Shown: positions 3,903 to 39,246 of the stretch, one piece after another
How positions within the stretch are numbered: position 1 is the first letter of the stretch
How the letters are laid out: each line of letters opens with the position of its first letter
Source of the DNA: Bacteroidota bacterium
GTDB lineage: Bacteria > Bacteroidota > Bacteroidia > Bacteroidales > FEN-979
Length of the DNA stretch: 64,000 nt
Assembly: GCA_026391795.1 (NCBI GenBank)
Contig: JAPLDI010000047.1
Location: 1-64,000, forward strand
Direction of reading: 5' to 3'
Notes under the pieces: generated by a model
The model's database searches: none
What the model was told of the DNA's origin: nothing
Seen by the model: only the letters and a program-made list of their open reading frames with translations
Translations under genes and position numbers: made by a program

Positions 3903-6900
3903 ATGATCAGTCGTGTCATTCATTTTTCAATCAACAATAAATTTGTTGTAGGGCTATTTGTGCTGGCCCTGATCGGATGGGGGATTTATTCCCTGACCCG
4001 GCTTCCCATTGATGCAATCCCTGATATCACCAACAACCAGGTTCAGATCATTTCGCTGGCACCATCCCTTGCCGTTCAGGAGGTGGAGAGTTTTATAACG
4101 GCACCGATCGAAGTTGCCGTGGCAAACATTCCTGATATCATCGAACTCAGATCAATTTCCCGTCTGGGGCTTTCGGTTGTGACTGTAGTTTTTAAGGATG
4201 ATGTGAATGTTTACTGGGCGCGACAGCAGCTTGGTGAACGACTCAAAGAGGCAGAGGATGCGATCCCCCCCGGATTGGCTAAAATTGAACTGGCGCCCAT
4301 CAGCACCGGATTGGGTGAGATTTACCAGTACCGGCTTGCTGTGGAAAAGGGGTACGAAAAAAAATTCAATCCGATGGAGTTGCGTACCCTTCAGGATTGG
4401 ATTGTCAGGCGCGAGATGCTCGGCACCCCGGGTGTTGCTGATATAAACAGTTATGGAGGATTTGTCAAACAATATGAAATTGCGGTCAACCCTGAACGTC
4501 TCAGGGGAATGAATCTGACTCTCACAGATATTTTTGTTGCATTGGAGATGAATAATGAGAATACGGGAAGCGCTTATATTGACAAAAATCCGACTGCCTA
4601 TTTTATACGCGGTATTGGTCTTGTCAAAACGCTGGAGGATATTGAGAAGATCGTTCTCAGAACAAACGCTTCCGGTATTCCCGTGCTGATCAGGGATGTT
4701 GCTACTGTTCAATATGGAAGCGCGACACGGTATGGTGCATTCGTTGTTGACACTTCAGAGGCTGTCGGGGGTGTTGTGATGATGCTGAAAGGGGCAAATG
4801 CACACGAGGTGATCGACAACGTTGAAGTTCGCATCCAATCCATCCAAAAGTCATTGCCCCGGGGCGTAACCATTGAACCCTTCCTGAACCGATCCGATCT
4901 TGTTGGCAGGGCCATCGGTACCGTCTCAAAAAATCTGATCGAAGGGGCATTGATTGTCATCTTCATCCTTGTCTTGTTACTGGGTAATATCAGGGCCGGG
5001 TTAATTGTTGCCTCGGTGATTCCTCTTTCCATGCTTTTTGCGATTTCGATGATGAACCTGTTTGGCGTATCAGGGAATCTGATGAGCCTGGGAGCCATTG
5101 ACTTCGGACTTATCGTGGACGGGGCGATCATTATCGTGGAAAGTGCGGTTCACAGGATATTCATGAGTAAGCACCACCATCCGGGAATAGCCAGGCTTTC
5201 CCAGCAGCAGATGGATGAAAATATCTTTGAATCGGCAAAACGAATGATGAGTTCTGCCACATTCGGCCAGATCATCATTCTTATCGTTTATCTTCCCATC
5301 ATGGCGTTAGTTGGCATCGAAGGGAAAATGTTCCGTCCGATGGCGCAGGTTGTGGCTTTTGCCCTGCTGGGGGCGGCCATACTCTCCCTGACCTATGTCC
5401 CAATGGCATCCGCTCTTTTTCTCAGTAAGAAAACCGAGCATACGCGAAACTTCTCTGACCGTCTGATGGATTGGATACATGCAGTTTATACTCCGTTGAT
5501 CGAATGGGTGCTGAGGCATAAAATTATCGTCTCCACTTCCGCAATCGCCTTATTCCTTTTCAGCATGTTTCTTTTCAGCCATTTAGGCGGAGAATTCATC
5601 CCCCAGCTTGAAGAGGGCGACCTGGCTTCAAGTGTGATCACTCTGCAGGGAGGATCACTGACCAATACCATTGAATCAGTGATTAAGGCAAATAAGATAT
5701 TACTGGATAATTTCCCGGAGATCAAACACACGGTTTGCAAGATAGGTTCCGGAGAGATTCCCACCGATCCTACACCGATGGAAACAGGCGACTACGTTAT
5801 TACCCTTAAAGATAAAAGCGAATGGACATCAGCGAAAACCCGCGAAGAGCTTGTAGGAAAGATGGAGGAAAAACTGGTGACCCTTGCAGGGGTTAAATTT
5901 GAATTCCAGCAGCCTATTCAAATGCGTTTTAACGAGCTGATGACGGGAGCTAAACAGGATGTTGCTGTAAAAATATTCGGGGACAACCTGACTATTTTGG
6001 CAGAAAAAGCATCGGAGATTGAAGGGATCATTCAGAAAATCGAAGGCGTTGAAGACATCAATGTGGAGAAAGTAACTGGTCTCGCACAGGTGCAGGTTGA
6101 TTTCAACCGTGACCGTCTCGCCCAATACGGGCTTTCGGTTGATGACGTGAACAAGGTGTTGAGAGCTGCTTTTGCCGGGAGTGAGGCCGGGGTGGTATAC
6201 GAAGGGGAAAAAAGATTCGCGCTGGTAGTCCGCCTTGACAAAGATTTCCGGCAAAGCCTGAATGATGTGAAAAGCATATCTGTGGCTTTGCCAAACGGAT
6301 CACAATTACCGTTGGACCAGGTTGCAGATATAACGATAAAGTCGGGTCCGGCACAGGTTTCGAGAGAAGATACCAAACGGAGGATAACAGTAGGTTTTAA
6401 TGTCCGCAACCGGGATGTTCAAAGTGTTATCGCAGAAGTGACCCGGAAGATAGACCAGCAGATCAAGCTGCCAGCCGGGAATTATGTTTCCTACGGCGGC
6501 CAGTTCCAGAACCTGGAAGCTGCCAGGGCCAGGTTATCGGTTGCCGTCCCTGTCGCCCTTCTCCTGATTTTCGTATTACTCTATTTTACTTTTCATTCTG
6601 TTAAGCAGACCTTATTGATCTTTACAGCCGTGCCGATGTCGGCAATTGGCGGTGTGTTTGCCCTCTGGATGCGTGGGATGAACTTTTCAATTTCGGCCGG
6701 GGTTGGCTTTATTGCCCTGTTTGGCGTCGCCGTACTGAACGGGATCGTACTTATAGCAGAGTTTAACCGGCTGGAGAAAGAAGGAGTAACCGATATTACC
6801 GAGCGTGTTCTTAAAGGTCTCCGGACACGTCTGCGTTCTGTTATCATTACCGGGGCTGCTCCGGCGCTTGGTTTCTTACCCATGGTCATTTCTACATCCG

Positions 6901-8291
6901 CGGGTGCTGAAGTGCAAAAACCGCTTGCAACAGTCGTTATCGGCGGACTAATCAGCGCCACCCTGCTAACCCTGATCGTTTTGCCTGTTTTTTATATCAC
7001 CTTCTCCCGGAAACTGAAGATGCCGGTCTGGTGGAGATCGATCAAGGGTGCTGCAGTCCTTCTGTTATTCTTCCTGATTACGTCATCATTCTATTCTCTG
7101 TCGGCGCAAAACCCCAGGAATGTCACACTAAACGATGCCATTCAGATCGCACTTGACAGCAACCTCTCCGTCCGGTCAGCAGTTTATTCGGCAGATGTTC
7201 AGAAAGCCCTTAAAGGGGCAGGATGGGATATCCCCAAGACGATCGTTGAAGGACAGTATGGTCAATTTAACTCGTATCAGAATGACAACAGCTTCACAGT
7301 TTCCCAGGCTTTTGCCTTTCCAACCGTTTATGTAAACCAGACAAGGCTTTCCACTGCAAATATCAAGAGTGCTGAATGGCAAAAAATGAATGCACGACTC
7401 GATATAGCCATTCAGGTAAAGCAGGTATACCTGCAGCTGGCTTACCTTCATTCGAGTCAGCGGCTTCTGGGTTATCAGGACAGTTTGTATTCCGGGTTTT
7501 TACATGCGGCGGAGCTCCGTGCGAAGACAGGTGAGACAAACCGTCTTGAGATGATTACAGCACGTACACAAAGCTTTGAAATAAAGAACCAGCTGCGGCA
7601 GGTTTCCATCGATATCGGGATCTATAACCGGAAATTGCAAACTCTTCTCAATACACGGGCTCCGGTAATCCCAACGGATACCATTCTCCACCGGCTCACT
7701 TTCGAACCGATAAAGGATAGTCTGGCCCTGAATACAAACCCTTCACTGGGACTGATCAGACAACAAGTCGAAGTTTCCCGGATCACCGGTCTTGTGGAAC
7801 GTGACCGGATGATGCCGGACCTGAGTATCGGATACTTCAGCCAGACGATTGTCGGGACCCAGGAGATTGACGGAGTGGCTCGTGATTTTGGTCTTGGACA
7901 CCGGTTTACAGGAATCCAGGCAGGGATTGCAATTCCGATCTGGTTTGGGCCTTCCGTCTCAAAGATCAAGGCAGCCAGGTTGCAGGAAAAGGTATCCAGG
8001 ACAAATGCGGATTATTATTCTGCCACCTTGTTAAGTAATTACAAATCATTGCTGGATGAGTATCTTAAGTATGCCACCAGCGTAGATTATTATGAACAGC
8101 AGGCAGTGCCTGAAGCCGAGATGATCATCAAGCAGTCTACGCAGAGCTATAAAGCCGGGGCGCTGGATTACCTTGATTACGTCATAAATCTCAACCGGGC
8201 GCTGGATATCAGGCAGAACTACCTTGAGGCACTTAATAATTACAACCAGACCATTATTAATATTGATTATACAACAGGTATAATATTTTAA
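3903..8291 (+). CDS. CzcA/CusA heavy-metal RND pump fused to a TolC-like outer-membrane factor
   Basis: 1462 residues. Residues 1 to about 1035 are a complete heavy-metal RND transporter: N-terminal helix, two large periplasmic loops, TM4 charged motif GLIVDGAIIIVES near residue 400, and the IPTDPTP signature of the HME family. From about residue 1070 an outer-membrane efflux protein follows (NVTLNDAIQIALDSN; long alpha-hairpins; ends NYNQTIINIDYTTGI). Between them, residues 1040-1069 (start MPVWWRSIKG, end SSFYSLSAQ) look exactly like a signal peptide, with an in-frame ATG at 7020. So the fusion may be cleaved, or the channel may also be made from the internal start. Such fusions occur in Bacteroidota. 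Exports divalent or monovalent metal cations using the proton gradient; the exact metal is undecided. The adaptor gene follows 12 bp downstream. Confidence 0.93.
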   Translation: MISRVIHFSINNKFVVGLFVLALIGWGIYSLTRLPIDAIPDITNNQVQIISLAPSLAVQEVESFITAPIEVAVANIPDIIELRSISRLGLSVVTVVFKDDVNVYWARQQLGERLKEAEDAIPPGLAKIELAPISTGLGEIYQYRLAVEKGYEKKFNPMELRTLQDWIVRREMLGTPGVADINSYGGFVKQYEIAVNPERLRGMNLTLTDIFVALEMNNENTGSAYIDKNPTAYFIRGIGLVKTLEDIEKIVLRTNASGIPVLIRDVATVQYGSATRYGAFVVDTSEAVGGVVMMLKGANAHEVIDNVEVRIQSIQKSLPRGVTIEPFLNRSDLVGRAIGTVSKNLIEGALIVIFILVLLLGNIRAGLIVASVIPLSMLFAISMMNLFGVSGNLMSLGAIDFGLIVDGAIIIVESAVHRIFMSKHHHPGIARLSQQQMDENIFESAKRMMSSATFGQIIILIVYLPIMALVGIEGKMFRPMAQVVAFALLGAAILSLTYVPMASALFLSKKTEHTRNFSDRLMDWIHAVYTPLIEWVLRHKIIVSTSAIALFLFSMFLFSHLGGEFIPQLEEGDLASSVITLQGGSLTNTIESVIKANKILLDNFPEIKHTVCKIGSGEIPTDPTPMETGDYVITLKDKSEWTSAKTREELVGKMEEKLVTLAGVKFEFQQPIQMRFNELMTGAKQDVAVKIFGDNLTILAEKASEIEGIIQKIEGVEDINVEKVTGLAQVQVDFNRDRLAQYGLSVDDVNKVLRAAFAGSEAGVVYEGEKRFALVVRLDKDFRQSLNDVKSISVALPNGSQLPLDQVADITIKSGPAQVSREDTKRRITVGFNVRNRDVQSVIAEVTRKIDQQIKLPAGNYVSYGGQFQNLEAARARLSVAVPVALLLIFVLLYFTFHSVKQTLLIFTAVPMSAIGGVFALWMRGMNFSISAGVGFIALFGVAVLNGIVLIAEFNRLEKEGVTDITERVLKGLRTRLRSVIITGAAPALGFLPMVISTSAGAEVQKPLATVVIGGLISATLLTLIVLPVFYITFSRKLKMPVWWRSIKGAAVLLLFFLITSSFYSLSAQNPRNVTLNDAIQIALDSNLSVRSAVYSADVQKALKGAGWDIPKTIVEGQYGQFNSYQNDNSFTVSQAFAFPTVYVNQTRLSTANIKSAEWQKMNARLDIAIQVKQVYLQLAYLHSSQRLLGYQDSLYSGFLHAAELRAKTGETNRLEMITARTQSFEIKNQLRQVSIDIGIYNRKLQTLLNTRAPVIPTDTILHRLTFEPIKDSLALNTNPSLGLIRQQVEVSRITGLVERDRMMPDLSIGYFSQTIVGTQEIDGVARDFGLGHRFTGIQAGIAIPIWFGPSVSKIKAARLQEKVSRTNADYYSATLLSNYKSLLDEYLKYATSVDYYEQQAVPEAEMIIKQSTQSYKAGALDYLDYVINLNRALDIRQNYLEALNNYNQTIINIDYTTGIIF

Positions 8292-8303
8292 TCCGTAAAC
8301 CCC

Positions 8304-9488
8304 ATGAAAAAGTATAAAATCATTATTTCATTCCTTCTGATACTTGTCACCCTCCTGGTTGTTTCCTGTAACGGAGGCAAAAAGACAAATACAGAGATCA
8401 AAGAAGCAGAGGTTCTGCCTGCAGATGTTGTGGAGCTAAGGGCCGACCAGGTTAAGCTGGCAAACATTGAAACCGGCCTTATACAAATGCGTTCACTCAG
8501 CGGCAACCTCAAAGTGAACGGCTCAGTAAGCGTATCGCCCGACAATCTTGCAACTGTCTGTATGCCATTCGGAGGTTTTGTAAAAAGCGCCAATTTGATC
8601 CCCGGCAGGGCAGTTACCAAAGGACAGACCCTCGCTATTATTGAAAACCAGGAATTTGTTGATATCCAGCAAAATTTCCTTGAAGCAAAAAGTAAACTTG
8701 AATATGCAGAGGCAGAATATAAACGGCATACAGAATTATACAAGGAAGATGTTTACTCACAGAAAAACCTGCAACAGGTCACGGCAGAGTACAACAGCCT
8801 GAAAGCCCAGGTTCATGGTCTGGAACAGAAACTTATCATGATCGGAATCAATCCTGCCGGGTTTACTGAAGACAATATCACCAGTTCTGTGGCCGTGATT
8901 TCTCCGATATCCGGTTATGTGAAGAGTGTGAATGTCAATATCGGCAAGTATGTGGCACCCACCGACGTGCTTTTTGAGATTGTGAATATCGACAAGTTGT
9001 ATCTTGAACTGAACCTGTTTGAGAAGGATGCCGATAAAGTATCGGCAGGACAAAAGATCCACTTCTTTATCAATAATGAAACCGAGCAGCACGAAGCTGT
9101 GATCTACCAGACGGGCAGATCGGTAAATGCTGATAAAACCTATAAGGTCTATGCCACTGTTGCAGGAAACTGCAAGAATGTGATTCCTGGAATGTATGTA
9201 AATGCAATCATTGAGGCCTCAACTGACAGTGTTACTGCCCTTCCGGCTGAAGCAATTGTCAGTTTTGATGATAAGGATTACATCTTTGTTTTTGATAAAA
9301 ACAAAATGGAAAAAGGGAATCAGTTTTCAGAGTATAGAATGGTAGAAGTCCATAAAGGAATTACGGATGGTGGATATACGGAAATTATTTTACCCGGAGG
9401 CTTTGATGCTAAATCATCAAGGATCGTTATCAAAGGTGCATACAACCTGCTTTCAGCCATGAAAAACTCAGGAGCAATGGCATGTTAG
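8304..9488 (+). CDS. RND efflux periplasmic adaptor (CusB/CzcB family) lipoprotein
   Basis: 394 residues with a lipoprotein signal (lipobox VVSC, Cys22). The body has the membrane-fusion-protein order: barrel-sandwich half (GFVKSANLIPGRAVTKGQTL), alpha-hairpin (residues about 115-180, coiled-coil with EYKRHTELYKEDVYSQKN), second lipoyl half (VAVISPISGYVKSVNVNIGK), beta-barrel and membrane-proximal domain. It bridges the RND pump encoded just upstream to the fused outer-membrane channel. The gene order is small Cys-rich protein, pump-channel fusion, adaptor. Its 3' end is followed by word-like repeats that form an inverted repeat with those of the convergent recQ. Confidence 0.92.
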   Translation: MKKYKIIISFLLILVTLLVVSCNGGKKTNTEIKEAEVLPADVVELRADQVKLANIETGLIQMRSLSGNLKVNGSVSVSPDNLATVCMPFGGFVKSANLIPGRAVTKGQTLAIIENQEFVDIQQNFLEAKSKLEYAEAEYKRHTELYKEDVYSQKNLQQVTAEYNSLKAQVHGLEQKLIMIGINPAGFTEDNITSSVAVISPISGYVKSVNVNIGKYVAPTDVLFEIVNIDKLYLELNLFEKDADKVSAGQKIHFFINNETEQHEAVIYQTGRSVNADKTYKVYATVAGNCKNVIPGMYVNAIIEASTDSVTALPAEAIVSFDDKDYIFVFDKNKMEKGNQFSEYRMVEVHKGITDGGYTEIILPGGFDAKSSRIVIKGAYNLLSAMKNSGAMAC

Positions 9489-28672: not shown

Positions 28673-31564
28673 ATGACGAATTTTCTTGAGAAAACGGCAA
28701 ACCATCTTTACAAGACATACGGCGAAAAGATCTCCGATCTCTGCATTGTGGTTCCCAACCGCCGGGCGGGGCTTTTTCTTCAGAAATATCTTGGAAATAC
28801 TGTTGGGAAAACGATCTGGTCACCGGCCATTTTTTCCATCGAGGATTTTCTTGTCAACCTTTCCGGACTTCGCATTTGCGATCCCACGCAGGTTCTGTTT
28901 GAATTGTATGAGATCCACAAAAAACAGGAAGGGAAAAATGCCCAACCCTTCGACGAATTCACCAGTTGGGCGCAGCAGTTGCTCGGCGATTTCAACGAGA
29001 TTGACAGCTACCTGGTGGATGCCAAGGAACTTTTCAGCTTCCTGAATGAAGCCAAAGCGCTTTCGGTCTGGAATCTCGACAACCAGCCTCTCACAGATTT
29101 TGAAAAGAAGTACCTGCGGTTTTTCAATTCTCTTTACACCTATCATGAACAGCTGGGTTCCCGGCTGCTTGCCTCCAACCTTGCTTATCCCGGACTTCTC
29201 TTCCGCAAGACGGCAGAACAGATCGGGAAACTTCAGGAAAAGATTGCCTGGGAGAAAATTATCTTTGCCGGGTTTAATGCCCTGACAAAAGCTGAGGAGA
29301 ATATCATCGACACCCTGGTCTCCCTCGGTAAAACGGAAATGCTCTGGGATGCTGATTCATACTACCTGGAGGATGAAAAACAGGAAGCCGGGTTCTTCCT
29401 CAGGATGTGGAAACGGAAATGGAAGAATCAGCCCTTCAACTGGATTGAAAAAGATTTTGCTACATCGTCGGTAAAAATTAAGATCATCGGGGTCCCATAT
29501 CATGTGGGACAGGCAAAACTCTGCGGAGAACTGTTGACCGGTCAGATGCTGAATGAGCACCCGGTTGAGAGTACTGCTGTGGTGATGATGGATGAACAGC
29601 TCATTCTTCCTGTATTAAACTCGCTTCCACCCACCGTGAAGGATCTTAACATCACCATGGGACTACCCCTGCGACAAACTCCGGTTTATGATCTCTTCGA
29701 CACGATCTTCAGGATGCACGAGAATATCTCCCGTTTCGAAAAACAAGGATCTGCAGGAACTGAAAAATTTTATTACCGCGACATCCTGAAGGTGCTTCAG
29801 CATCCCTATGCGTCGCGGATGGCGGGGAAATTGCTGAAGGGAAACGCCTTCATCCTCGAAGAGCTTGTTTCTGACATACGTTCCGGGAACCGCGTTTTTC
29901 TGGGGAAAGAGGAGCTGATCCGGTCGGGGACAGGAATCTTTTCCGGGAGCCTTGGTTTCCTGGAACCGGTTTTCGACTCGTGGCAGGACCCTGCCAGAAC
30001 CATTGAATGCCTCAGAAAAGTCATCGCGAATCTGCGTGATGGATTTATTTCCGGAAATAATGAAAAAGAGTCACGATCTGTTCAAATTGAAGTTGAATTC
30101 CTGTATGCCTTTTCCAGGATCATCTTTCGCCTCTCAACCCTCTTTGAAAAATACGATGCCATAAAGAATCTGAAGGTATTTCATTCCCTTTTCAACCAGC
30201 TTGCCGGGTTTACCTCCCTGCCATTCTATGGTGAACCTCTGCGTGGGCTGCAGATGATGGGAATGCTGGAAACACGTACCCTCGATTTTGACAACCTGAT
30301 CCTTCTCTCTGTAAATGAAGACCTGATTCCCAGTGGAAAAACTAACCAGTCGTTCATTCCCTTCGATATCCGCCGTCATTTTCGCCTTCCGACCTATCAG
30401 CATAAAAATGCAATCTATGCATATCATTTTTACCGCCTGATCCAGAGGGCAAAACAGGTATACATGCTTTATAATACCGAGAGTGATGAGATGGGTGGCG
30501 GCGAAAAAAGCAGGTTTATCACACAGATTCTTCAGGAATTAAGGAAATACAATCCTGCTATTACCATTGAGGAAGAAATCCTTGTGACTTCACCCCTGAA
30601 AGCCTCATTCATGCCGGAGATCGTGATTCCAAAGAACGGTGAAGTTGCAGAGATGCTCCGGAAAAAAGCTGAAACGGGATTTTCCCCGACCTCTCTGAAC
30701 AACTATATTCAGTGCACCCTGAAGTTCTATATGCAGGAACTCCTTGGAATCCGGGAAGAGAAGGAGGTGGAAGAAACCATCGATTCACAGGTGCTTGGTC
30801 TTGCAATCCATGAAACCCTTGAGAAACTCTACCAGCCATTCAAGGAGATTGTATTGACGGAAGATGCCATCGGACAGATGCTTTCTCTTTACCTGCCGAC
30901 GCTCGATAAAGCATTTCAAAAGAAATTCAAAGGATCCGATGTGGCCTACGGCAAGAACCTGCTGCTGGTAAAAGTTGCCGGAATTCTTGTCCGGAAATTT
31001 CTTGAGAAAGAGAAAGAATTGCTTGCAGATCTCAGGAATGACGGAAAAGATATCATTGTTTCCTTCCTGGAGAAACCGGTAGCTGCAAAAATCGATATTG
31101 CAATCGGTGATCAGTCCCTGGAAGTGAAAATCAAGGGATTTATCGACCGGATCGATAAAATCGGGGAGGAGTGGAGGATCATCGATTATAAAACCGGCAG
31201 TGTCTCGCCATCATCACTGAAGTTTGAAGACTGGAAAAGGCTCAGGGAGGATTCCGACCTTTCAAAAATTGTTCAGCTTTATATGTATGCACTTCTGTTC
31301 CGGAAAGGCAGAAATGAAAAACCGGTAAAGATCAGGGCAGGAATCCTGTCCCTGAAAAATCTGAATGAGGGATTTATGCAGGTCCCGTCGCTTGTCTCAA
31401 CAGAAAAAAATGACACTCTGATCAGGGATGATGATCTTTCTGCATTTGAAAGGATCCTGAAAGATATACTTGCTGAGGTTTACGATCTTTCCATTCCGTT
31501 CCGGCAGACAGAAGATGTTAAACGATGCCAGTATTGCGATTTCGTCAATCTTTGCGACCGTTGA
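28673..31564 (+). CDS. addB: AddB-like PD-(D/E)XK nuclease/inactivated helicase subunit
   Basis: 963 residues. The N-terminus (IVVPNRRAGLFLQKYL) and the middle (LLSVNEDLIPSGKTNQSFIP, HFYRLIQRAKQVYMLYNTES) are typical of AddB/RexB, whose helicase domain lacks Walker A. The C-terminal RecB-type nuclease contains HETLEKLY, GFIDRIDKI and IIDYKTG, flanked by four Cys (C in YIQCTLKFY, then CQYCDFVNLC) that bind an Fe-S cluster in AddB. With AddA it resects double-strand breaks. No addA is adjacent. Its last 20 bp overlap the convergent Memo/AMMECR1 gene. Confidence 0.88.
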   Translation: MTNFLEKTANHLYKTYGEKISDLCIVVPNRRAGLFLQKYLGNTVGKTIWSPAIFSIEDFLVNLSGLRICDPTQVLFELYEIHKKQEGKNAQPFDEFTSWAQQLLGDFNEIDSYLVDAKELFSFLNEAKALSVWNLDNQPLTDFEKKYLRFFNSLYTYHEQLGSRLLASNLAYPGLLFRKTAEQIGKLQEKIAWEKIIFAGFNALTKAEENIIDTLVSLGKTEMLWDADSYYLEDEKQEAGFFLRMWKRKWKNQPFNWIEKDFATSSVKIKIIGVPYHVGQAKLCGELLTGQMLNEHPVESTAVVMMDEQLILPVLNSLPPTVKDLNITMGLPLRQTPVYDLFDTIFRMHENISRFEKQGSAGTEKFYYRDILKVLQHPYASRMAGKLLKGNAFILEELVSDIRSGNRVFLGKEELIRSGTGIFSGSLGFLEPVFDSWQDPARTIECLRKVIANLRDGFISGNNEKESRSVQIEVEFLYAFSRIIFRLSTLFEKYDAIKNLKVFHSLFNQLAGFTSLPFYGEPLRGLQMMGMLETRTLDFDNLILLSVNEDLIPSGKTNQSFIPFDIRRHFRLPTYQHKNAIYAYHFYRLIQRAKQVYMLYNTESDEMGGGEKSRFITQILQELRKYNPAITIEEEILVTSPLKASFMPEIVIPKNGEVAEMLRKKAETGFSPTSLNNYIQCTLKFYMQELLGIREEKEVEETIDSQVLGLAIHETLEKLYQPFKEIVLTEDAIGQMLSLYLPTLDKAFQKKFKGSDVAYGKNLLLVKVAGILVRKFLEKEKELLADLRNDGKDIIVSFLEKPVAAKIDIAIGDQSLEVKIKGFIDRIDKIGEEWRIIDYKTGSVSPSSLKFEDWKRLREDSDLSKIVQLYMYALLFRKGRNEKPVKIRAGILSLKNLNEGFMQVPSLVSTEKNDTLIRDDDLSAFERILKDILAEVYDLSIPFRQTEDVKRCQYCDFVNLCDR

Positions 31565-33083
31565 TATCCTCCTCTGAGAAAACAACCGCTTCATAAATAT
31601 AAATATCCGCACCCTTCCAGCCGTTCCAATCAAGTCCGGCTTTATCGCGTGCACAATGCCCCAGGAATTCCTCTTTGTTCCAGCCTGTTTCGGTGGCTAC
31701 CTGCGGAAGGAATGTCCCGGAACTGTATCCTTTTTTAATATAAATTCCGTGTTTTCCCAGGATGATCTCATCAATAGAGCTGATCTTTTTCATAGGTGAA
31801 AGAACAGAAATCTCAATCGAGATCTTGTTGATCTCCCCGGGATCGACCGGGGAGAAACGATTGTCCTGAGTGGAAGAAGCGATGGCCATTTGTTGCACAA
31901 CCTGGTAGAGCGGTTCTTCTGCGGTAAAACGGCCAATGCATCCCCGCAGGGAACCCCCTTCCTTCAGGGTGACGAAGGCCCCGGAAGAGGTTCTCAGTAT
32001 TTCAGAGAAGCCTGACGGATCAATGGATGGGGTTTTATTGCTACGGATATATTGTTCGATCGTGGTCCGGGCGATCTTTAAAAGTTCTTTTTTATCTTTC
32101 TTGCTGAGATTAAATCCGGGGGAAGGAGCAGGAGGCGCAACTGTTTTTGCGGCAATGATTGACCAGTACCCGACAACCTGGCTTTTGTCCTTGTATTTTG
32201 AGTCACCGGAGTTCTGATAGTGAACCGCTTTCATCGTTACGGCCGGATCATTCTCAGTCATATACAGAAGTGTAAGAACTGAAGTCCATCCGCACAAACT
32301 GGTAGCCAGGTTCGGCACATTTTTTTCATCATTCTCCTTCAGGACCTTGAGCAGGTTGTCAGGCTGGTTGGTCAGAATGGCATCACAGGTGCTCTTATCA
32401 ACAGTCAGGGCGTCGTTGTAGGGCGGATAGTGTGAGAAATCGCTGCTGATTACAAAAAGATTGTTCCCGCCGAGGTAAGGTTTCAGGGCTTTTGCGATCT
32501 TCCTGCACGACTCGGCCGATTGTGTTCCGAGAACAATGGGGACCAGGTTAAAACTGTTCTTCAGATAATACTGCAGGAACGGAAGCTGCACCTCGATGCT
32601 GTGTTCCTTCCGATCGGCTTCAGGGTTGTAGGAGAAAACCGCATTCTCCCTGATCAGCTTATTCGCAAGGTCAACATTTACCTTTACTTTTCCAAGCGGC
32701 GTCTGATAGTCGCCAATGTTGTAGATGGATGCCCCCATGAAGGATACATGATGGCTTGATCCGATGATGAATATATTGTCATATTGTTTGTCGGGACTCA
32801 GCTGGTTGTAACTGCTGGCGGCCACCGTCCCGGAGAACACATATCCGGCATGCGGGCAGATGACCGCGATGACAGTTTTTCTTAGTGCCGGAGGTTTTGC
32901 ATCTGAGAACAGCTCTCCGAGCAGCGTCCTGAGCTCTGCAGGATCGGAGGGATAAAAACTGCCTGCAACGGCCATCGGCCTGTCGACAGATTCCCGGGTG
33001 GTTTTCTGGTCTTGCGAGCGGCATCCCGGTGTGACAAAGAAGAAGAGGAATAACAGCCAGAACCAGGAATGAGACTTCTGCAT
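31545..33083 (-). CDS. amrB: AmmeMemoRadiSam proteins B and A fused (Memo + AMMECR1), lipoprotein
   Basis: 512 residues from the ATG at 33083. N-terminal lipoprotein signal with lipobox TPGC (Cys21). Residues about 35-310 are a Memo-like domain: MAVAGSFYPSDPAEL, CPHAGYVFSG, GSSHHVSF, EHSIEVQLPFL, SSDFSHYPPY, SLCGWTSV (metal-ligand-type His and Cys retained). After a Pro-rich linker (TVAPPAPSPG), residues about 330-512 are AMMECR1: LRGCIGRF, DNRFSPVDPGE, PQVATETGWN. These two families co-occur with a radical SAM enzyme, encoded here at 35319. The reaction is not known to me. The lipid anchor places this fusion outside the cytoplasm. A longer start at 33113 is less likely as it would spoil the signal. 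Confidence 0.88.
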   Translation of the reverse strand: MQKSHSWFWLLFLFFFVTPGCRSQDQKTTRESVDRPMAVAGSFYPSDPAELRTLLGELFSDAKPPALRKTVIAVICPHAGYVFSGTVAASSYNQLSPDKQYDNIFIIGSSHHVSFMGASIYNIGDYQTPLGKVKVNVDLANKLIRENAVFSYNPEADRKEHSIEVQLPFLQYYLKNSFNLVPIVLGTQSAESCRKIAKALKPYLGGNNLFVISSDFSHYPPYNDALTVDKSTCDAILTNQPDNLLKVLKENDEKNVPNLATSLCGWTSVLTLLYMTENDPAVTMKAVHYQNSGDSKYKDKSQVVGYWSIIAAKTVAPPAPSPGFNLSKKDKKELLKIARTTIEQYIRSNKTPSIDPSGFSEILRTSSGAFVTLKEGGSLRGCIGRFTAEEPLYQVVQQMAIASSTQDNRFSPVDPGEINKISIEISVLSPMKKISSIDEIILGKHGIYIKKGYSSGTFLPQVATETGWNKEEFLGHCARDKAGLDWNGWKGADIYIYEAVVFSEEDINGRKD

Positions 33084-33091
33084 ATTTTTTC

Positions 33092-33099
33092 TAAATTTG
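33092..33099 (+). promoter_or_regulatory. -7 promoter box TAAATTTG for the spermidine-synthase-like gene
   Basis: Exact TAnnTTTG, 23 nt before the ATG at 33123, inside the 39-bp gap separating it from the divergent Memo/AMMECR1 gene. Both divergent promoters must overlap here or reach into coding sequence, so the two transcripts may be regulated together. Confidence 0.65.
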
Positions 33100-33122
33100 G
33101 TACTTCTCAACAAAGTTAATGC

Positions 33123-35261
33123 ATGACGGTCAGATTTGAAAATACAATCCGGATTTCTTTATTTACCCTTGGCTTTTCTGCTCTTGCCACCCAGGTATTT
33201 CTTATCCGTGAATGTTTTTCTGTCTTTAATGGCAATGAACTCGTTATCGGAATCGTCATGGCGAACTGGATGCTGCTAACCGGCGCAGGAGCCTACATTG
33301 CAAGGTTCTATTGCAGGATGAAAGGGCGGCTCACCTTTCTTCTCTTTCTGCAATTCCTCTTTTCCATTCTGCCAATACTGATGTTGCTGAAACTGGATCT
33401 GTGGAAAGCAGATTCACTTCCTGCAGGAACAATTCCCGGACTTATTCCGGTTATCCGATCCATGCTCCTCTTCCAGCTGCCTTTCTGCCTGCTCAATGGT
33501 TTTCTCTTTGTGGCTTTTGTTTATGAATTGTCGGAGGTTAGAATGAAAAATGCACTCTCCGTCTCTTATACCCTCGAAACCGTGGGAGGAATGGTCGCCG
33601 GGATCCTGGTGAATGTTTTTATCCTGACCTTCTCCGGCATATATACCGGACTTCATGCTGTCCTGTTTATCAACCTGATGGTCTGCATGCTTTTTTGTTT
33701 GACCAGTGCCAGCCGATTGCAGAAATTCATCATGCTCCCGGTATCTCTTCTTTTTATGGTTGTCCCTTTTTTTGCAGATCTCGACGCCTACACAGTTAAA
33801 CTGTTTTATCCGGATCAGCAAGTGATTTATCACAAATACACTCCATATGGAAAGCTGGATGTGACCATGAATGCCCGGCAGCTGAATTATTTTGAGAACG
33901 GGTTGCTGCTCTTCTCTTCCAGGAACGAAATTGGAAACGAAGAATCCGTTCATTTTGCAATGGCTCAGCATCCGAATCCTGAAACAATCTTAGTGGTTTC
34001 AGGCGGGATATCCGGAACACTGACGGAAATTCTGAAATACAACCCCGCCAGGATCGATTATGTAGAACTTGATCCTGCAATAACCGATATCGGACGAAAG
34101 TATTCAAAGATTCTGGATAATAAAAGGATTCATGTCATCCATGCCGATGCCCGTCGTTTTATACGTCATTCCAATGAAAAATACGATGTGGTGCTGATCA
34201 ACTTGCCGGAGCCCTTGTCATTGCTCATCAACCGTTATTATTCCCGGGAATTTCTTGTTGACCTGAAAAAGGTGCTGAACCCGGGGGGCGTCATTTGCGA
34301 AAGTTTGCCCGCCAGTTCCGATTATATGAGTAAAAAAGCAGCCGCTACAAACTCCACTCTGGTTCAAACCCTGAAAACCCGGTTCCGTATTGTGATGATC
34401 CTGCCGGGGCAGAGAAATTATTTTCTCGCTTCCGACAGCGCACTTTCCTCTGATATTCCTGACCTGATCAGGCAGCGAGGTATTTCAACAGTATATGTGA
34501 ATCCCTGGTACCTGGATGTAAATTCCCTGAAAGAACGATCGGAATATATCCATTCACACCTCAATACGACCGCAGAAGTGAACAGCGATTTCAGGCCACT
34601 GGCGTTCTTTCTGCAGATGAGATACTGGAATTCCATGTTCGAATGGAGTTTGCCTGTATCGCTGATTTTCATCCTGGTTTTGCTGGTTGTGATCGTTTTT
34701 ACCTTGAACAGGATAACCGTCGGGCTCTTCACGGGTGGTTTTACAGCCTCATCTCTCCAGTTGATGATCCTGGTTTCTTTCCAGGTTATCTATGGATATG
34801 TTTTTCTGGCCACGGGGATCATTCTTGCTTTGTTCATGGCTGGACTTGCTGCGGGTGCCTTTTCGTTTCCCCGGTTGATTCCGGTTCCTTCCGAAAAAGA
34901 TTACCTTCGTGTACAGTTCACACTGGCCTTCTATTCGCTCGGTTTCCCATTTGTCATCCTGGCTCTTAACCTGCCTGGATTTTCAGAATTTCTGGTCCGG
35001 ATCATTTTCATTTTCTTGATAATTTCTCTCTCCTTTATTATCGGACTGGAGTTTTCGCTTGCATCAGCCCTCGGTCGCCGGGGGATTACCGAAAAGGTCT
35101 CTTCCGGTTATTCTGCCGACCTCTTCGGATCCGCTTTTGGGGCCATCGCAACAATCCTGCTTCTGCTCCCTTTTCTCGGGATGGTAAATTCCTGCCTGGT
35201 AATAGCATTGATGAATCTTTTCAGTGCAGGATTTCTTTTTTTAAGGCCAAAAATATTGTAA
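33123..35261 (+). CDS. Polytopic membrane protein with spermidine-synthase-like methyltransferase-fold domain
   Basis: 712 residues. Seven or so N-terminal helices (SLFTLGFSALATQVFLIREC; MANWMLLTGAGAYIARF), a central Rossmann domain of the spermidine synthase family (residues about 225-450: ILVVSGGISGTLTEILKY, VELDPAI, HADARRFI, DVVLINLPEP), then about seven further helices. In true SpeE the second motif is GGGDG; here it is SGGISG, and the aminopropyl-transfer acidic residues are not obviously kept, so polyamine synthesis is doubtful. It lies inside the AmmeMemoRadiSam locus, 57 bp upstream of the radical SAM gene, and is probably a membrane component of that system (inference). Confidence 0.8.
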   Translation: MTVRFENTIRISLFTLGFSALATQVFLIRECFSVFNGNELVIGIVMANWMLLTGAGAYIARFYCRMKGRLTFLLFLQFLFSILPILMLLKLDLWKADSLPAGTIPGLIPVIRSMLLFQLPFCLLNGFLFVAFVYELSEVRMKNALSVSYTLETVGGMVAGILVNVFILTFSGIYTGLHAVLFINLMVCMLFCLTSASRLQKFIMLPVSLLFMVVPFFADLDAYTVKLFYPDQQVIYHKYTPYGKLDVTMNARQLNYFENGLLLFSSRNEIGNEESVHFAMAQHPNPETILVVSGGISGTLTEILKYNPARIDYVELDPAITDIGRKYSKILDNKRIHVIHADARRFIRHSNEKYDVVLINLPEPLSLLINRYYSREFLVDLKKVLNPGGVICESLPASSDYMSKKAAATNSTLVQTLKTRFRIVMILPGQRNYFLASDSALSSDIPDLIRQRGISTVYVNPWYLDVNSLKERSEYIHSHLNTTAEVNSDFRPLAFFLQMRYWNSMFEWSLPVSLIFILVLLVVIVFTLNRITVGLFTGGFTASSLQLMILVSFQVIYGYVFLATGIILALFMAGLAAGAFSFPRLIPVPSEKDYLRVQFTLAFYSLGFPFVILALNLPGFSEFLVRIIFIFLIISLSFIIGLEFSLASALGRRGITEKVSSGYSADLFGSAFGAIATILLLLPFLGMVNSCLVIALMNLFSAGFLFLRPKIL

Positions 35262-35318
35262 TTTTATAGAGTATTTTCGGGATGTGGATTAAAAAATACC
35301 TCCCTGTTTATTCGAAGG

Positions 35319-36482
35319 ATGGCAAGAAAGATATCGAAACGGGATTTTTTACGCCTCAGTGTTTTGGGACTTGGTGCTGCTGCCGCTGGTACCGGGACGG
35401 CCAGGGCCCTGGCGAAAGGGATGATCAACAAAGGAGGAAATGCCCTCACCGGCTCCCCGGATGACCTTTCAAAATATACCCGTGAAACGCCATATTCCAT
35501 TCAGATGGCACGAGGGGTGAAGTGCCAGATCTGCCCGAACAACTGCATTCTGAAAGAAGGTCAGGACAGCCTCTGCCGGACTCATGTTGTCAGGGACGGG
35601 AAACTGTATACCATCGCTTATGGAAATCCCTGCTCTGTACATGTCGATCCTATCGAGAAAAAACCATTGTTCCATTTTCTTCCCTCTACCCGGAGCTTTT
35701 CAATAGCCACAGCCGGCTGTACAATAGCCTGCCTGAACTGCCAGAACTGGGAGATATCCCAGGAAAGTCCAAGAAACACATCAAACTTTGACCTTATGCC
35801 TGTTAAGGTTATGGAACAGGCTGTCCAGAGCGGCTGCAGGTCGGTAGCTTATACGTATTCAGAACCCGTGGCATTCTATGAGTACACCTTTGATACGGCG
35901 AGATTCGTCCGGGCGAGGGGGTTGAAAAACGTGTTGATCTCCAACGGCTTTATCAATGAAAAGCCGTTACGCGACCTTTGCAAATACATCGATGCGGCCA
36001 ATATAAACCTGAAGTCATTCAGTGAGGAAATTTACGCGAAACTGAATGGCGGTTCGTTACAACCCGTGCTGAATACATTGAAGATTCTCAGGGAAGAAGG
36101 GGTCTGGCTGGAGATCACCAACCTGGTTGTTCCCGGGTGGACCGACAAGCCAGACATGATCACGCAGATGTGTGAGTGGCTTGCAAAGAGCGGTTTCGGG
36201 GATACACCCTTGCATTTCAGCCGTTTTTTTCCGCTGTACAAACTGAAAGATCTTCCCTATACCCCGCTGGATATCCTTGAACGTGCAAGGGAAATTGCTA
36301 TAAAGGCCGGGATCAGGTATGTTTATATCGGTAATGTTCCGGGATCTCCGGCAGAAAACACTTACTGCCCGGAATGTAAGAAGGTAATTGTAGAGAGAAA
36401 GGGATTCTCAATCCTTAACAATAACATCAGCAATTCCGCGTGTAAATTCTGTTCGGCAAAAATTGCCGGGGTGTGGAGTTAA
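35319..36482 (+). CDS. amrS: AmmeMemoRadiSam radical SAM enzyme with Tat-like signal
   Basis: 387 residues. Radical SAM cluster motif CTIACLNC (Cys134, 138, 141). Additional Cys groups flank it: CQICPNNC with Cys86 upstream, and CPECKK...CKFC at the C-terminus, probably for further metal sites. The family is the PflA-related AmmeMemoRadiSam enzyme. Unusually, the first 33 residues (ISKRDFLRLSVLGLGAAAAG, then ARALA) form a twin-arginine-type signal with KR in place of RR. Export of a radical SAM enzyme would be remarkable because S-adenosylmethionine is cytosolic, but its partner is a lipoprotein. Overlaps the convergent nuclease gene by 4 bp. Confidence 0.88.
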   Translation: MARKISKRDFLRLSVLGLGAAAAGTGTARALAKGMINKGGNALTGSPDDLSKYTRETPYSIQMARGVKCQICPNNCILKEGQDSLCRTHVVRDGKLYTIAYGNPCSVHVDPIEKKPLFHFLPSTRSFSIATAGCTIACLNCQNWEISQESPRNTSNFDLMPVKVMEQAVQSGCRSVAYTYSEPVAFYEYTFDTARFVRARGLKNVLISNGFINEKPLRDLCKYIDAANINLKSFSEEIYAKLNGGSLQPVLNTLKILREEGVWLEITNLVVPGWTDKPDMITQMCEWLAKSGFGDTPLHFSRFFPLYKLKDLPYTPLDILERAREIAIKAGIRYVYIGNVPGSPAENTYCPECKKVIVERKGFSILNNNISNSACKFCSAKIAGVWS

Positions 36483-37585
36483 GGTCCTTCTGCTTCCCTG
36501 TTTTTCCAGATATCCAGATAGATTGGCAGATGATCTGAGAAGCCGCCTGTATAGCGGGGCCCGGCATAAGTGCGTACAGGTCTTCCTCCCATGAACCGTT
36601 CATCGTCTTCCATCAGGAAAGCAGCATGAAAGATATGAACGGCTTCACGTGAAGTTTGTAAACTCTTCCGCTTAAGAAAAAAATTCCCTGTGACCATAAA
36701 TTGGTCAAGAATGGCCCACTTTCCCTGAAATTTATGCGTGCCTTCATTTGGATTATGGTTCAATGGCAACATCAGGTTTACAAGGCCTGACGCTCTGGTC
36801 TGGTCTGAAAGTCCTGCTGCACCAAGCACCCTGGCAATCGCCGGCTGGTCGGGTTCATCATTGAAATCGCCCATGATGATGATTTGCGGATCAGCCTGAT
36901 TTTGCTGAAGCGTATCCAGGACCGAACGGAGTTTTTGTGCTGCAATCTTTCTTTTCGGAACACTTTCTGCGAAACCTCCTCTTCGGGAAGGCCAGTGGTT
37001 AACGAAAAGATGGAGGGTGTCACCGGTAAAGAGGATGCCTTTGACGTAGAGGATATCCCGGGTGTGAATCAACGAATCAAAAGGAAACTGAATGCGGATG
37101 CTTCGCGAGTATTCAATCCTGAATAGATCCGGACGATACAGGATTGCTACATCAATTCCCCGGGCATCTTCCGATTCGAAATGAATGAAACGGTATTTGT
37201 ACTTTTTCAGCGGTGTTTCATAGATCATTTTATTAAGCACATACCGGTTCTCTACCTCACACATCCCGATGATCGCAGGGGGTTCCCATTCCCCGATGGC
37301 CATGAAGGTTTTTGCCAAGTGATTCAGCTTCTGAAGGAACCTGCCGAAGGTCCATCTTTTAATCCCTTTCGGAGTGAACTCTTCATCCAGTTTTGTTGTG
37401 TCATCGAAAGGATCATAAAGGTTTTCAAGATTGTAGAATACGACTCTGACAAATTGGCGTTTTTTTACCAAGGTTTCGGGATTGGCATGGTTTTCGGAAA
37501 GGTCCGGATCCTGCCTTCCGGTTGTTTTCTGTCCAAAAAAAAAGACAGGGAACAGGAGAAAAGCAAGAGTAATAAATGTTCTCAT
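36479..37585 (-). CDS. Secreted endonuclease/exonuclease/phosphatase (EEP) family protein
   Basis: 368 residues with a signal peptide (MRTFITLAFLLFPVFFFGQ). EEP/DNase I-fold motifs: FYNLENLYDPFDD, IIGMCEVENR (metal-binding Glu), VNHWPSR, IIMGDFNDEPDQ and the C-terminal SDHLPIYLDI (catalytic Asp-His). Likely an extracytoplasmic nuclease or phosphodiesterase, perhaps for nutrient scavenging. Shares a 4-bp convergent overlap with the radical SAM gene. No exact promoter box seen upstream. Confidence 0.88.
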   Translation of the reverse strand: MRTFITLAFLLFPVFFFGQKTTGRQDPDLSENHANPETLVKKRQFVRVVFYNLENLYDPFDDTTKLDEEFTPKGIKRWTFGRFLQKLNHLAKTFMAIGEWEPPAIIGMCEVENRYVLNKMIYETPLKKYKYRFIHFESEDARGIDVAILYRPDLFRIEYSRSIRIQFPFDSLIHTRDILYVKGILFTGDTLHLFVNHWPSRRGGFAESVPKRKIAAQKLRSVLDTLQQNQADPQIIIMGDFNDEPDQPAIARVLGAAGLSDQTRASGLVNLMLPLNHNPNEGTHKFQGKWAILDQFMVTGNFFLKRKSLQTSREAVHIFHAAFLMEDDERFMGGRPVRTYAGPRYTGGFSDHLPIYLDIWKNREAEGP

Positions 37586-37818: not shown

Positions 37819-39246
37819 ATGAAACGTTTGATTGGTCTTTTTCTGGTAGCAGTGGCCGGTGGTGCTGTTGCCTTAGGCGCTTATAAATTGATGGAACAGA
37901 AACGTCCTCTTTACACTTCAGCAGTGCAACAATCACTCCCGCTCAGGCCGGTGAATTATATTCCGGGTGCAGCATTCGATCAGCCCGATTTTGAAATGGC
38001 AGCGTCCATTTCGGTCCATGCGGTTGTTCATATCAAAACTGAATTCCAGAGGAAAAGCAATGTATATGATGATTTTTTTAATCTATTCAACTTCGGACAA
38101 GGTATGCCCAACCAGGCGATTGAAGCCATGGGGTCAGGCGTGATCGTGGATCCGGAGGGATATATTGTTACCAATAACCATGTCGTTCAGGATGCAGATA
38201 ATATTATCGTTACCCTGAATGACAAACGTGTTTTTAAAGCCACCATCGTCGGTGCTGATGCAAGTACAGATCTGGCTTTGATCAAGATCGAGGAGAAGAA
38301 CCTGCCTTTCCTTTCATACGGAAACTCTGATGATGTAAGGATCGGAGAATGGGTGCTCGCAGTTGGGAATCCGTTCAACCTCACATCTACCGTCACCGCC
38401 GGAATTGTCAGTGCCAAAGCCAGGGATATTAACATTCTCGGCTCTCAGGGATCTGTTGAATCGTTTATCCAGACTGACGCTGCCGTAAATCCTGGCAATA
38501 GCGGAGGTGCCCTCGTCAACCTGAAAGGACAACTCATCGGCATCAACGCTGCCATTGCTTCCGGAACCGGAAACTATGTGGGTTATTCATTCGCAATTCC
38601 TGCTAACATCGTAAAAAAAGTGGTGGGTGACTTCATGAAGTTCGGGAAGATCCAGCGCGGCTATCTCGGCATCAGGTACAGGGAGATTGACGACCAGTTT
38701 GCAAGAGACAAAGATCTTCCATCCGTAAAAGGTGTTTATGTTCAGGAGGTTGTGGAAGGCGGAGCCGCCGAAAAAGCGGGCATGAAAAAAGGAGATGTCA
38801 TCCTTCAGATGCAGGGGTTGCCCGTTAACAGCGGATCCGAACTCCAGGAGATCATCACGCAGCATAATCCTGGCGATAAAATCGCCCTGTCGGTTTTCCG
38901 GGACGGAAATCAGGTGGATCTGTCACTGACGCTTCTGAACGAAAATGAAAATCTGGCATACACCAAAGATAACCAGATCATTATCCATGGTGCTACCTTT
39001 CAGCATATCACCGATAGCGAGAAACAACGGTATACGATCAACGACGGATACAAGATCGTTCATCTCGATAACGGTTTGCTGAGAAACAGCGGTATCAGGG
39101 AGGGTTTTATAATAACAGCAATAGACAAACAACCAGTCCATTCTACGCAGGATCTGAAAGAGGCATTTACTTCCCGAAAAGGAGGGGTGCTCGTTGAAGG
39201 GGTTTACCCGAACGGTATGAGGGCGTATTATGGCATAGGACTATAG
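37819..39246 (+). CDS. degP: DegP/HtrA-family periplasmic serine protease
   Basis: 475 residues. N-terminal signal or signal anchor (LIGLFLVAVAGGAVALGAYK). Trypsin-like triad His121 (TNNHVVQ), Asp151 (STDLALIK), Ser228 (NPGNSGGALV). Two PDZ domains follow: the first with GYLGIRYREI and GAAEKAGMKKGDVIL, the second, more diverged, with GLLRNSGIREGFIITAID. It degrades or refolds damaged envelope proteins. The gene is 12 bp upstream of rpoD on the same strand, so envelope-protease and primary sigma factor expression are linked. Confidence 0.93.
   Translation: MKRLIGLFLVAVAGGAVALGAYKLMEQKRPLYTSAVQQSLPLRPVNYIPGAAFDQPDFEMAASISVHAVVHIKTEFQRKSNVYDDFFNLFNFGQGMPNQAIEAMGSGVIVDPEGYIVTNNHVVQDADNIIVTLNDKRVFKATIVGADASTDLALIKIEEKNLPFLSYGNSDDVRIGEWVLAVGNPFNLTSTVTAGIVSAKARDINILGSQGSVESFIQTDAAVNPGNSGGALVNLKGQLIGINAAIASGTGNYVGYSFAIPANIVKKVVGDFMKFGKIQRGYLGIRYREIDDQFARDKDLPSVKGVYVQEVVEGGAAEKAGMKKGDVILQMQGLPVNSGSELQEIITQHNPGDKIALSVFRDGNQVDLSLTLLNENENLAYTKDNQIIIHGATFQHITDSEKQRYTINDGYKIVHLDNGLLRNSGIREGFIITAIDKQPVHSTQDLKEAFTSRKGGVLVEGVYPNGMRAYYGIGL

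Follow-up and report, generated by a model that had tools for sequence, protein, structure and literature searches.

A candidate extracytoplasmic form of the AmmeMemoRadiSam system in a Bacteroidota bacterium

The stretch of DNA analyzed here (the window; 64,000 nucleotides of contig JAPLDI010000047.1 in assembly GCA_026391795.1, from a Bacteroidota bacterium) carries, at positions 31545 to 36482, adjoining genes for a Memo-AMMECR1 fusion protein, a polytopic membrane protein, and a radical S-adenosylmethionine (SAM) enzyme. Based on sequence comparisons, we conclude that this locus is probably an extracytoplasmic form of the AmmeMemoRadiSam system, with an export-type signal on the radical SAM enzyme and another on the Memo-AMMECR1 fusion. 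The three genes lie where an earlier reading of the sequence alone (the original prediction) had placed them. The Memo-AMMECR1 open reading frame (ORF) scores 247.7 bits with TIGR04336 (cut-off, 26) and 166.9 bits with TIGR04335 (cut-off, 99), and the radical SAM enzyme scores 353.4 bits with TIGR04337 (cut-off, 220) and is also matched by PF04055; thus, all three families of the AmmeMemoRadiSam system are above their cut-offs in genes that adjoin. The membrane protein scores 77.3 bits with PF01564 (cut-off, 22.9). It resembles transporters of the major facilitator superfamily (MFS) and has an inserted domain that resembles spermidine synthase (SpeE), and we refer to it as MFS-SpeE. The window genome is 3.76 Mb, and the locus is on the contig that we number C38. 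The features of the locus are as follows.

31545..33113, minus strand: Memo-AMMECR1 fusion protein, ORF from its first start (TIGR04336 and TIGR04335 above cut-off; PF01875, PF01871)
33083, minus strand: likely start of Memo-AMMECR1, at codon 11, which leaves a 39-bp gap
33021..33083, minus strand: signal peptide with lipobox-like VTPGC (from the sequence)
32154..32981, minus strand: Memo domain (H88, H121, D225, H228, and C274 conserved)
31578..32087, minus strand: AMMECR1 domain (PF01871, 173.8 bits; archaeal structures 1zq7, 1vaj, and 1wsc)
33084..33122, no strand: divergent intergenic gap of 39 bp (from the coordinates)
33123..35261, plus strand: MFS-like membrane protein with inserted spermidine-synthase-like domain, MFS-SpeE (AlphaFold2 model, VIA-align)
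33123..33773, plus strand: transmembrane (TM) helices TM1 to TM7, predicted cytoplasmic N terminus (AlphaFold2 helices, loop charges)
33819..34592, plus strand: spermidine-synthase-like Rossmann domain, predicted periplasmic (GGxD Asp lost; E315 and D342 kept)
34650..35243, plus strand: TM8 to TM14, the final two being one long helix in the model (AlphaFold2 helices, loop charges)
35319..36482, plus strand: AmmeMemoRadiSam radical SAM enzyme (TIGR04337, PF04055)
35319..35420, plus strand: Tat-like signal, KR variant, with ARALA c-region (sequence, conservation, codon changes; below the TIGR01409 cut-off)
35337..35354, plus strand: KRDFLR motif (contains R8 and F10)
35523..35576, plus strand: N-terminal Cys motif CxxCxxxC...C (invariant in 18 of 18 homologues)
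35718..35741, plus strand: radical SAM motif CxxxCxxC (invariant in 18 of 18)
36366..36452, plus strand: C-terminal CxxC...CxxC ribbon (invariant in 18 of 18)

The radical SAM enzyme begins with MARKISKRDFLRLSVLGLGAAAAGTGTARALAK. The twin-arginine translocation (Tat)-type signal that the original prediction described is present there as SKRDFLR, then LSVLGLGAAAAG, then ARALA, and it includes the second Arg, the Phe at +2, a hydrophobic stretch, and an AxA-like c-region. R8 and F10 are invariant in all 18 aligned homologues, while the linker that follows the signal is not conserved. Codon changes follow the same pattern. Synonymous and nonsynonymous changes in codons 1 to 34 number 11 and 4 against relative G001, 16 and 8 against G003, and 9 and 5 against G004; the comparison with G002 (12 and 13) is weaker. 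In linker codons 35 to 66 they number 8 and 13 against G001 and 6 and 20, 7 and 11, and 7 and 19 against the other three relatives, and in the catalytic part they number 135 and 47 against G001. A start at Met35, which would make the signal an artifact of a false upstream start, is ruled out by the conservation of R8 and F10 and by the codon changes, among which the G002 comparison is weak.

Signals of this kind recur across homologues. The survey that the original prediction had proposed was made with our own motif and hydropathy rule rather than SignalP, and it drew on three samples: 61 relatives, 392 genomes of the phylum (50 places were fetched, not all), and the best 80 of 589 candidates. 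The 181 rows, less the duplicate L136, give 180 enzyme rows in 179 loci (L and G numbers are our handles for loci and genomes). Eighty-four rows are Tat-like (32 with RR, 51 with KR, and 1 with RK), 15 have a Sec-type signal or anchor, 1 is fused to a DsbD_2 domain, 68 are signal-less, and 12 are truncated or split. These numbers include assignments made by eye, in which L047 and L153 were reassigned to Tat and L148 to signal-less, and L198 was given its own class; L136 was kept for the counts of DsbD_2, of RR and KR, and of neighboring ORFs, and the signal-less rows number 69 in the DsbD_2 count. Phe is at +2 in 81 of the 84 Tat-like homologues, a count from a match picker that favors Phe. 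A nearly identical Tat rule is met by 49 of 1,145 neighboring ORFs, and some of these resemble genuine Tat proteins. We discarded TatC as a discriminator since it is found in 59 of 61 genomes, the window's included. Signal-bearing records are labeled Bacteroidota, Ignavibacteriota, Thermodesulfobacteriota, Omnitrophota, Planctomycetota, Acidobacteriota, Latescibacterota, Chloroflexota, Elusimicrobiota, and others; most named records are metagenome assembled, and misbinning is possible. Two contigs labeled Aenigmatarchaeota and Altiarchaeota (L145 and L173) also carry a Tat-type enzyme with MFS-SpeE and are possibly misbinned.

In a tree of 168 catalytic domains (from the 181 rows, leaving out domains shorter than 300 amino acids and identical ones such as L136), all 82 Tat rows and all 15 Sec rows fall in a single branch of 120 rows, the support for which is moderate (SH-aLRT [Shimodaira-Hasegawa-like approximate likelihood ratio test], 85) and not starred. 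Forty-eight of the 62 signal-less rows in the tree lie outside this branch and 14 lie inside it. Within the branch, the Sec label requires seven changes, two of them forced by starred branches. The distribution of signals suggests that the signal-bearing enzymes use different export routes in one direction. In eleven genomes, a Tat form occurs alongside a signal-less one (G010, G043, G049, G050, G060, G099, G138, G180, G319, G327, and G397), which speaks for two compartments. The original prediction had also named homologues that start near residue 35 and lack a Tat-like region as evidence that would count against export. Homologues without a Tat region do occur, in G013, G015, G032, G034, G035, G036, and G059; six of these seven are placed by the tree and are nested in or beside Tat forms, and G035 was judged by eye.

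Two further signs go beyond the signal itself. Five Tat-type enzymes (L073, L074, L174, L191, and L206) have a CxxCH at the same place between the signal and the catalytic domain; two are from the window's phylum, and one each is labeled Chloroflexi, Latescibacterota, and "bacterium." CxxCH is in no other row, with only 14 signal-less rows having more than 40 residues there to scan. The attachment of c-type heme takes place outside the cytoplasm. The second sign is a DsbD_2-like protein, which is encoded within 5 kb of 12 of the 15 Sec-type enzymes, of 1 of the 84 Tat-type enzymes (a weak match of 40 bits), of none of the 69 signal-less rows, and of none of the 12 truncated or split rows. By tree position, the DsbD_2-flanked Sec enzymes form about five separate groups; the Sec-type loci L161, L202, and L203 have no DsbD_2 carrier within 5 kb. 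The profile used was made from 10 of the same loci, and diverged carriers elsewhere could be missed. The carriers in L166, L168, and L171 also hold flavin mononucleotide (FMN)-binding and 4Fe-4S domains, and a profile for this FMN/Fer4 companion also matched Tat locus L199 and the truncated or split rows L129 (weakly), L175, and L177. Since Tat cargo brings its own clusters and Sec cargo, which would cross unfolded, needs reduced cysteines, we read the DsbD_2 pattern as what export requires. Clustering of 1,355 neighboring ORFs showed no further shared partner of Tat enzymes among the 22 largest clusters, beyond the local synteny of the window's family. Separately, on a Lentisphaeria contig (L198, positions 6140 to 7966), a DsbD_2 membrane domain is fused to the radical SAM enzyme itself.

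The Memo-AMMECR1 fusion is very likely exported separately, probably as a lipoprotein, and would face the same compartment as the enzyme. The fusion and the signal described by the original prediction are both present, and starting at codon 11 gives the 39-bp divergent gap that it reported; the assignment as a lipoprotein is less firm, as VTPGC is only lipobox-like and the Cys is absent from that position in some relatives. By our rule, the fused protein is signal-bearing in 58 of the 60 loci whose enzyme is Tat-type, and in the other two (L046 and L152) an assembly gap or contig end falls at the Memo-AMMECR1 signal. Among 99 Memo domains, H88 is kept in 97, H121 in 97, D225 in 99, H228 in 99, and C274 in 95. 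The metal ligands of human MEMO1 are His49, His81, and Cys244, in a study whose authors doubt the modeled geometry (PMC9477392). The match of C274 to the human Cys is drawn from conservation and lies outside the structural-homologue alignment. The metal-site residues H88, H121, H228, and C274 are kept in Memo. A second, weakly Memo-like protein of about 365 to 388 amino acids with one hydrophobic stretch is encoded kilobases away in L055, L059, L063, L066, L067, and L114.

The membrane protein between the two is predicted to have an MFS fold. An AlphaFold2 model built on 60 homologues (pLDDT [predicted local distance difference test], 92.2) has seven helices, a spermidine-synthase-like domain, and six helical segments, the last of which (residues 655 to 707) is probably two helices, for a total of 14 TM helices. 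In VIA-align comparisons, MFS chains spanning the model score Z 22.6 to 27.0, including SV2A (9okg, Z 27.0), sialin (8dwi, Z 24.8), and XylE (4ja3, Z 24.2), and the inserted domain matches SpeE (1uir) at Z 27.7. The Pfam MFS model is absent from the matches at E values up to 1, and NF037959, the model for a fused MFS/spermidine synthase, gives 32.6 bits, below its cut-off of 40. Helix limits were placed manually from hydropathy before the structure model had been looked at; with these limits, all 60 sequences have an excess of Lys and Arg inside (mean, 17.2 inside and 2.9 outside; per residue, 0.184 versus 0.074), and based on this and the model, the N terminus is very probably cytoplasmic and the synthase-like domain very probably on the periplasmic face. 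The domain is degenerate, as the original prediction had it, with PF01564 matched and the GGxD Asp lost. In the columns that we take to be catalytic, from alignment to SpeE and knowledge of the motif, Asp is found in 1 of 60 sequences at column 296 (GGxD) and in 7 of 60 at column 360 (Asn in 30), while the ribose-side and adenine-side acids E315 and D342 are each kept in 58 of 60. Loss of the catalytic Asp with retention of E315 and D342 points to a nucleoside-binding-like domain without aminopropyl transfer.

Nine MFS-SpeE proteins (L035, L036, L039, L045, L049, L143, L147, L149, and L152) have an extra N-terminal domain of three TM helices in which two His residues, 14 residues apart, are invariant in 9 of 9. 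Its model is of modest quality (pLDDT, 76.5), Pfam matches are weak (DUF4405 in 5 of 9; best E value, 0.0022), and a fold search gave no matches at E values up to 0.001. The domain recalls heme-b proteins; family and fold searches give no support, and we offer this reading tentatively.

MFS-SpeE accompanies the signal-bearing form of the enzyme. In the survey of the membrane protein against exported and signal-less forms, also proposed earlier, all 34 of the 61 relatives that have a Tat-type enzyme also have MFS-SpeE (once, in G042, on another contig), as against 0 of 7 genomes of this branch with signal-less forms (the seven named above; whole-genome search). Conversely, 34 of the 35 relatives with an MFS-SpeE match at E < 1e-100 carry a Tat-type enzyme; G029 has a partial MFS-SpeE match, and no enzyme was found in it. 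A weaker partial match in G052 (E = 9.1e-45) was not counted, and G025 is cut by a contig end. Few MFS-SpeE losses among the 61 relatives are independent. In L062 (G015; positions 8277 to 9347), codons 1 to 4 of MFS-SpeE and the preceding sequence are joined directly to the mature radical SAM enzyme, and it appears that the transporter and the Tat signal were lost together in one in-frame deletion. Across a table of 128 rows (excluding the truncated or split rows, the paralogue in L036, and any locus that lacks MFS-SpeE and has less than 4 kb on either side), 72 have signal and MFS-SpeE, 12 have signal only, 44 have neither, and none has MFS-SpeE without a signal.

We think it possible, at somewhat less than even odds, that the SpeE-like domain moves or holds SAM, or the by-product 5'-deoxyadenosine, for the exported enzyme. 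The original prediction had suggested that the membrane Rossmann protein could bind or hand over SAM; the predicted periplasmic-facing domain and the kept nucleoside-binding acids make this plausible and do not take it further. A rather improbable alternative, and the best surviving of those that we considered, is that MFS-SpeE transports or senses polyamines or another amine and has no connection to SAM supply. Spermidine-synthase ancestry favors this, as does the fact that MFS folds carry many substrates. However, the domain has lost the Asp residues of aminopropyl transfer and kept the acids of the nucleoside side, and a strong MFS-SpeE match in the 61 relatives almost always comes with a Tat-type enzyme.

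Several observations weigh against the conclusion that this is an exported system supplied through MFS-SpeE. The window enzyme lacks a strict Arg-Arg pair and has KR, as do 51 of the 84 Tat-like rows. According to a 2019 review (PMC6708511), TtrB is the only native KR Tat cargo known, and a single Arg-to-Lys change is said mostly to slow Tat export. The curated Tat model TIGR01409 gives the window enzyme 11.3 bits, below its cut-off of 16.7, and the gene is not among the seven places that this model gives in a scan of the whole genome (five above the cut-off, of the RR kind; several look by eye like Fe-S proteins). Seven of 10 homologues tested are below the cut-off or silent, RR ones included (L159, L156, and L208 at 14.0 to 15.2 bits and the window at 11.3; L054, L040, and L073 silent), and 3 of 10 are above it (L145, L160, and L173 at 22.4 to 23.4 bits); with the window failing and 3 of 10 homologues passing, we dropped this model as proof of export. 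In loci with a signal-less enzyme and a fused Memo, the Memo signal is still present in 8 of 14, which means that the compartments can come apart. A subclade of six rows (L175, L177, L178, L180, L185, and L190; starred, support 96) has a signal-less catalytic ORF. In L175, L178, L180, and L190, the catalytic ORF is overlapped by an upstream ORF that includes an anchor or signal along with the first strand of the enzyme, and the upstream ORF of L175 and L177 encodes an FMN_bind plus Fer4 membrane protein.

The link to MFS-SpeE has exceptions as well. MFS-SpeE occurs with no signal in the enzyme ORF in L175, L177, L190, and L205 (a contig end), four truncated or split rows that were left out of the 128-row test together with the second, signal-less copy in L036. 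Seventeen of the 84 Tat-type rows show no MFS-SpeE in the fetched stretch, many with 6 to 7 kb on both sides. Corrected for the tree, the association is not significant (three independent pairs, 2.5 of 3 in the same direction, median P = 0.25); with only three independent pairs, kinship explains much of its strength. Neither a DsbD_2 nor an FMN/Fer4 carrier lies alongside the window locus, a further result that does not fit. If an Fe-S enzyme left by Sec, its clusters would have to be assembled outside the cytosol, and the radical SAM enzymes known so far draw their SAM and reductant from the cytosol.

The KR pair, the score below the curated cut-off, the Memo signals kept beside signal-less enzymes, and the six-row subclade would also be consistent with an N-terminal stretch that is an uncleaved membrane tether, the catalytic domain being cytosolic, as it is in other radical SAM enzymes, and only Memo-AMMECR1 exported. 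We consider this unlikely. R8 and F10 are invariant and 32 of the 84 Tat-like rows have RR, three homologues pass the curated model, other lineages have cleavable-looking Sec signals, five Tat-type enzymes have CxxCH, and DsbD_2 proteins stand beside most Sec-type enzymes. As far as sequence can speak to it, these observations bear out the export part of the original interpretation. The TatC of the window genome and its other Tat signals, of the RR kind, also count in favor of an extracytoplasmic system. The last alternative is that the enzyme is exported without sustained radical chemistry, as a one-time carrier of SAM or cluster or as an Fe-S or metal scaffold for Memo-AMMECR1, and it is favored by there being, to our knowledge, no SAM pool outside the cytosol. 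It is also favored by the ability of Tat to export folded proteins and proofread FeS cargo (PMC6708511), but it is the least probable of all, as CxxxCxxC is kept in all 97 signal-bearing domains of at least 300 amino acids (82 of 82 Tat and 15 of 15 Sec) and the C-terminal ribbon in 93 of 97 (missing from 2 Tat and 2 Sec), and electron-carrier genes recur beside Sec-type enzymes.

We return to an extracytoplasmic AmmeMemoRadiSam system as the preferred reading. The enzyme likely folds and acquires its Fe-S clusters before leaving the cytosol through Tat, a step that we hold slightly less firmly than before because the curated Tat model scored the window below its cut-off. Outside, it would generate the 5'-deoxyadenosyl radical from SAM that reaches it, or is recycled, by way of MFS-SpeE; the export step is well supported by sequence, and the SAM supply is what we infer. 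Modules that differ between lineages may carry reducing power across the membrane: DsbD_2 in Sec lineages, alone or together with FMN/Fe-S conduits, and possibly heme elsewhere. Enzyme, Memo, and AMMECR1 may jointly modify a substrate in the envelope, outside the cytosol. An earlier survey of the Memo family reportedly linked Memo to base or isoprenoid modification; an isoprenoid substrate would fit the membrane. In its widest form the model is one that we hold tentatively: a widespread extracytoplasmic radical SAM family, exported by Tat with built-in clusters or by Sec with DsbD_2 or FMN/Fe-S carriers, fed SAM by MFS-SpeE, reduced in some lineages through membrane or c-type hemes, and sharing an envelope substrate with exported Memo-AMMECR1.

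Radical SAM enzymes are taken to be intracellular on account of their need for SAM and a strong reductant. If our reading is true, an exported branch in several phyla implies a route for SAM and a supply of electrons across the membrane. It would also give Memo and AMMECR1, which each have relatives in humans, a compartment and partner proteins that narrow down their function, and it would supply many natural KR-type Tat signals for testing.

The radical SAM gene is split in L175, L177, L178, L180, and L190, the anchor or signal and the first strand of the enzyme being in the upstream ORF, with an overlap in four of these five, by ATGA in L175, L180, and L190. The window locus is flanked by ORFs named by eye as nuclease/helicase-like (28673 to 31564), endonuclease/exonuclease/phosphatase-like (36479 to 37585), and HtrA-like (37819 to 39246), and between 27 and 29 of the loci examined are surrounded by relatives of these flanking genes.

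A periplasmic radical SAM enzyme was not found in the literature searched, which leaves out most subscription papers, and this is thin evidence of absence. The families themselves have been described before. Neither the exported branch nor the MFS-SpeE that partners it, nor the electron carriers that recur, turned up in that literature. One paper (PMC10924467) names a radical SAM gene only as a neighbor, and another (PMC7159879) cites a 2019 description of Memo-Ammecr1 systems. Among known systems, the nearest solved radical SAM protein by sequence is pyruvate formate-lyase activating enzyme (3c8f, E = 1.5e-10 over residues 131 to 289), a match that extends to neither the signal nor the N-terminal and C-terminal Cys motifs of the window enzyme. 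Pyruvate formate-lyase activating enzyme is cytosolic. MFS-SpeE resembles SpeE and NF037959 proteins in its Rossmann domain, with the catalytic Asp lost in nearly all of its members, and it shares the MFS fold of SV2A over 342 aligned residues at 11% identity, a likeness that shows no function. DsbD_2/CcdA-type carriers and FMN/Fer4 conduits adjoin or are fused to Sec-type enzymes and were not found beside the window locus. A further comparison is with signal-less AmmeMemoRadiSam forms, in which Memo and AMMECR1, where seen, are apart (13 loci) or fused (15 loci) and MFS-SpeE is found in 0 of 67 loci (setting aside the L036 paralogue and a duplicate). In the window, by contrast, a fused Memo-AMMECR1 bears a signal, and an export-type signal is also present on the enzyme.

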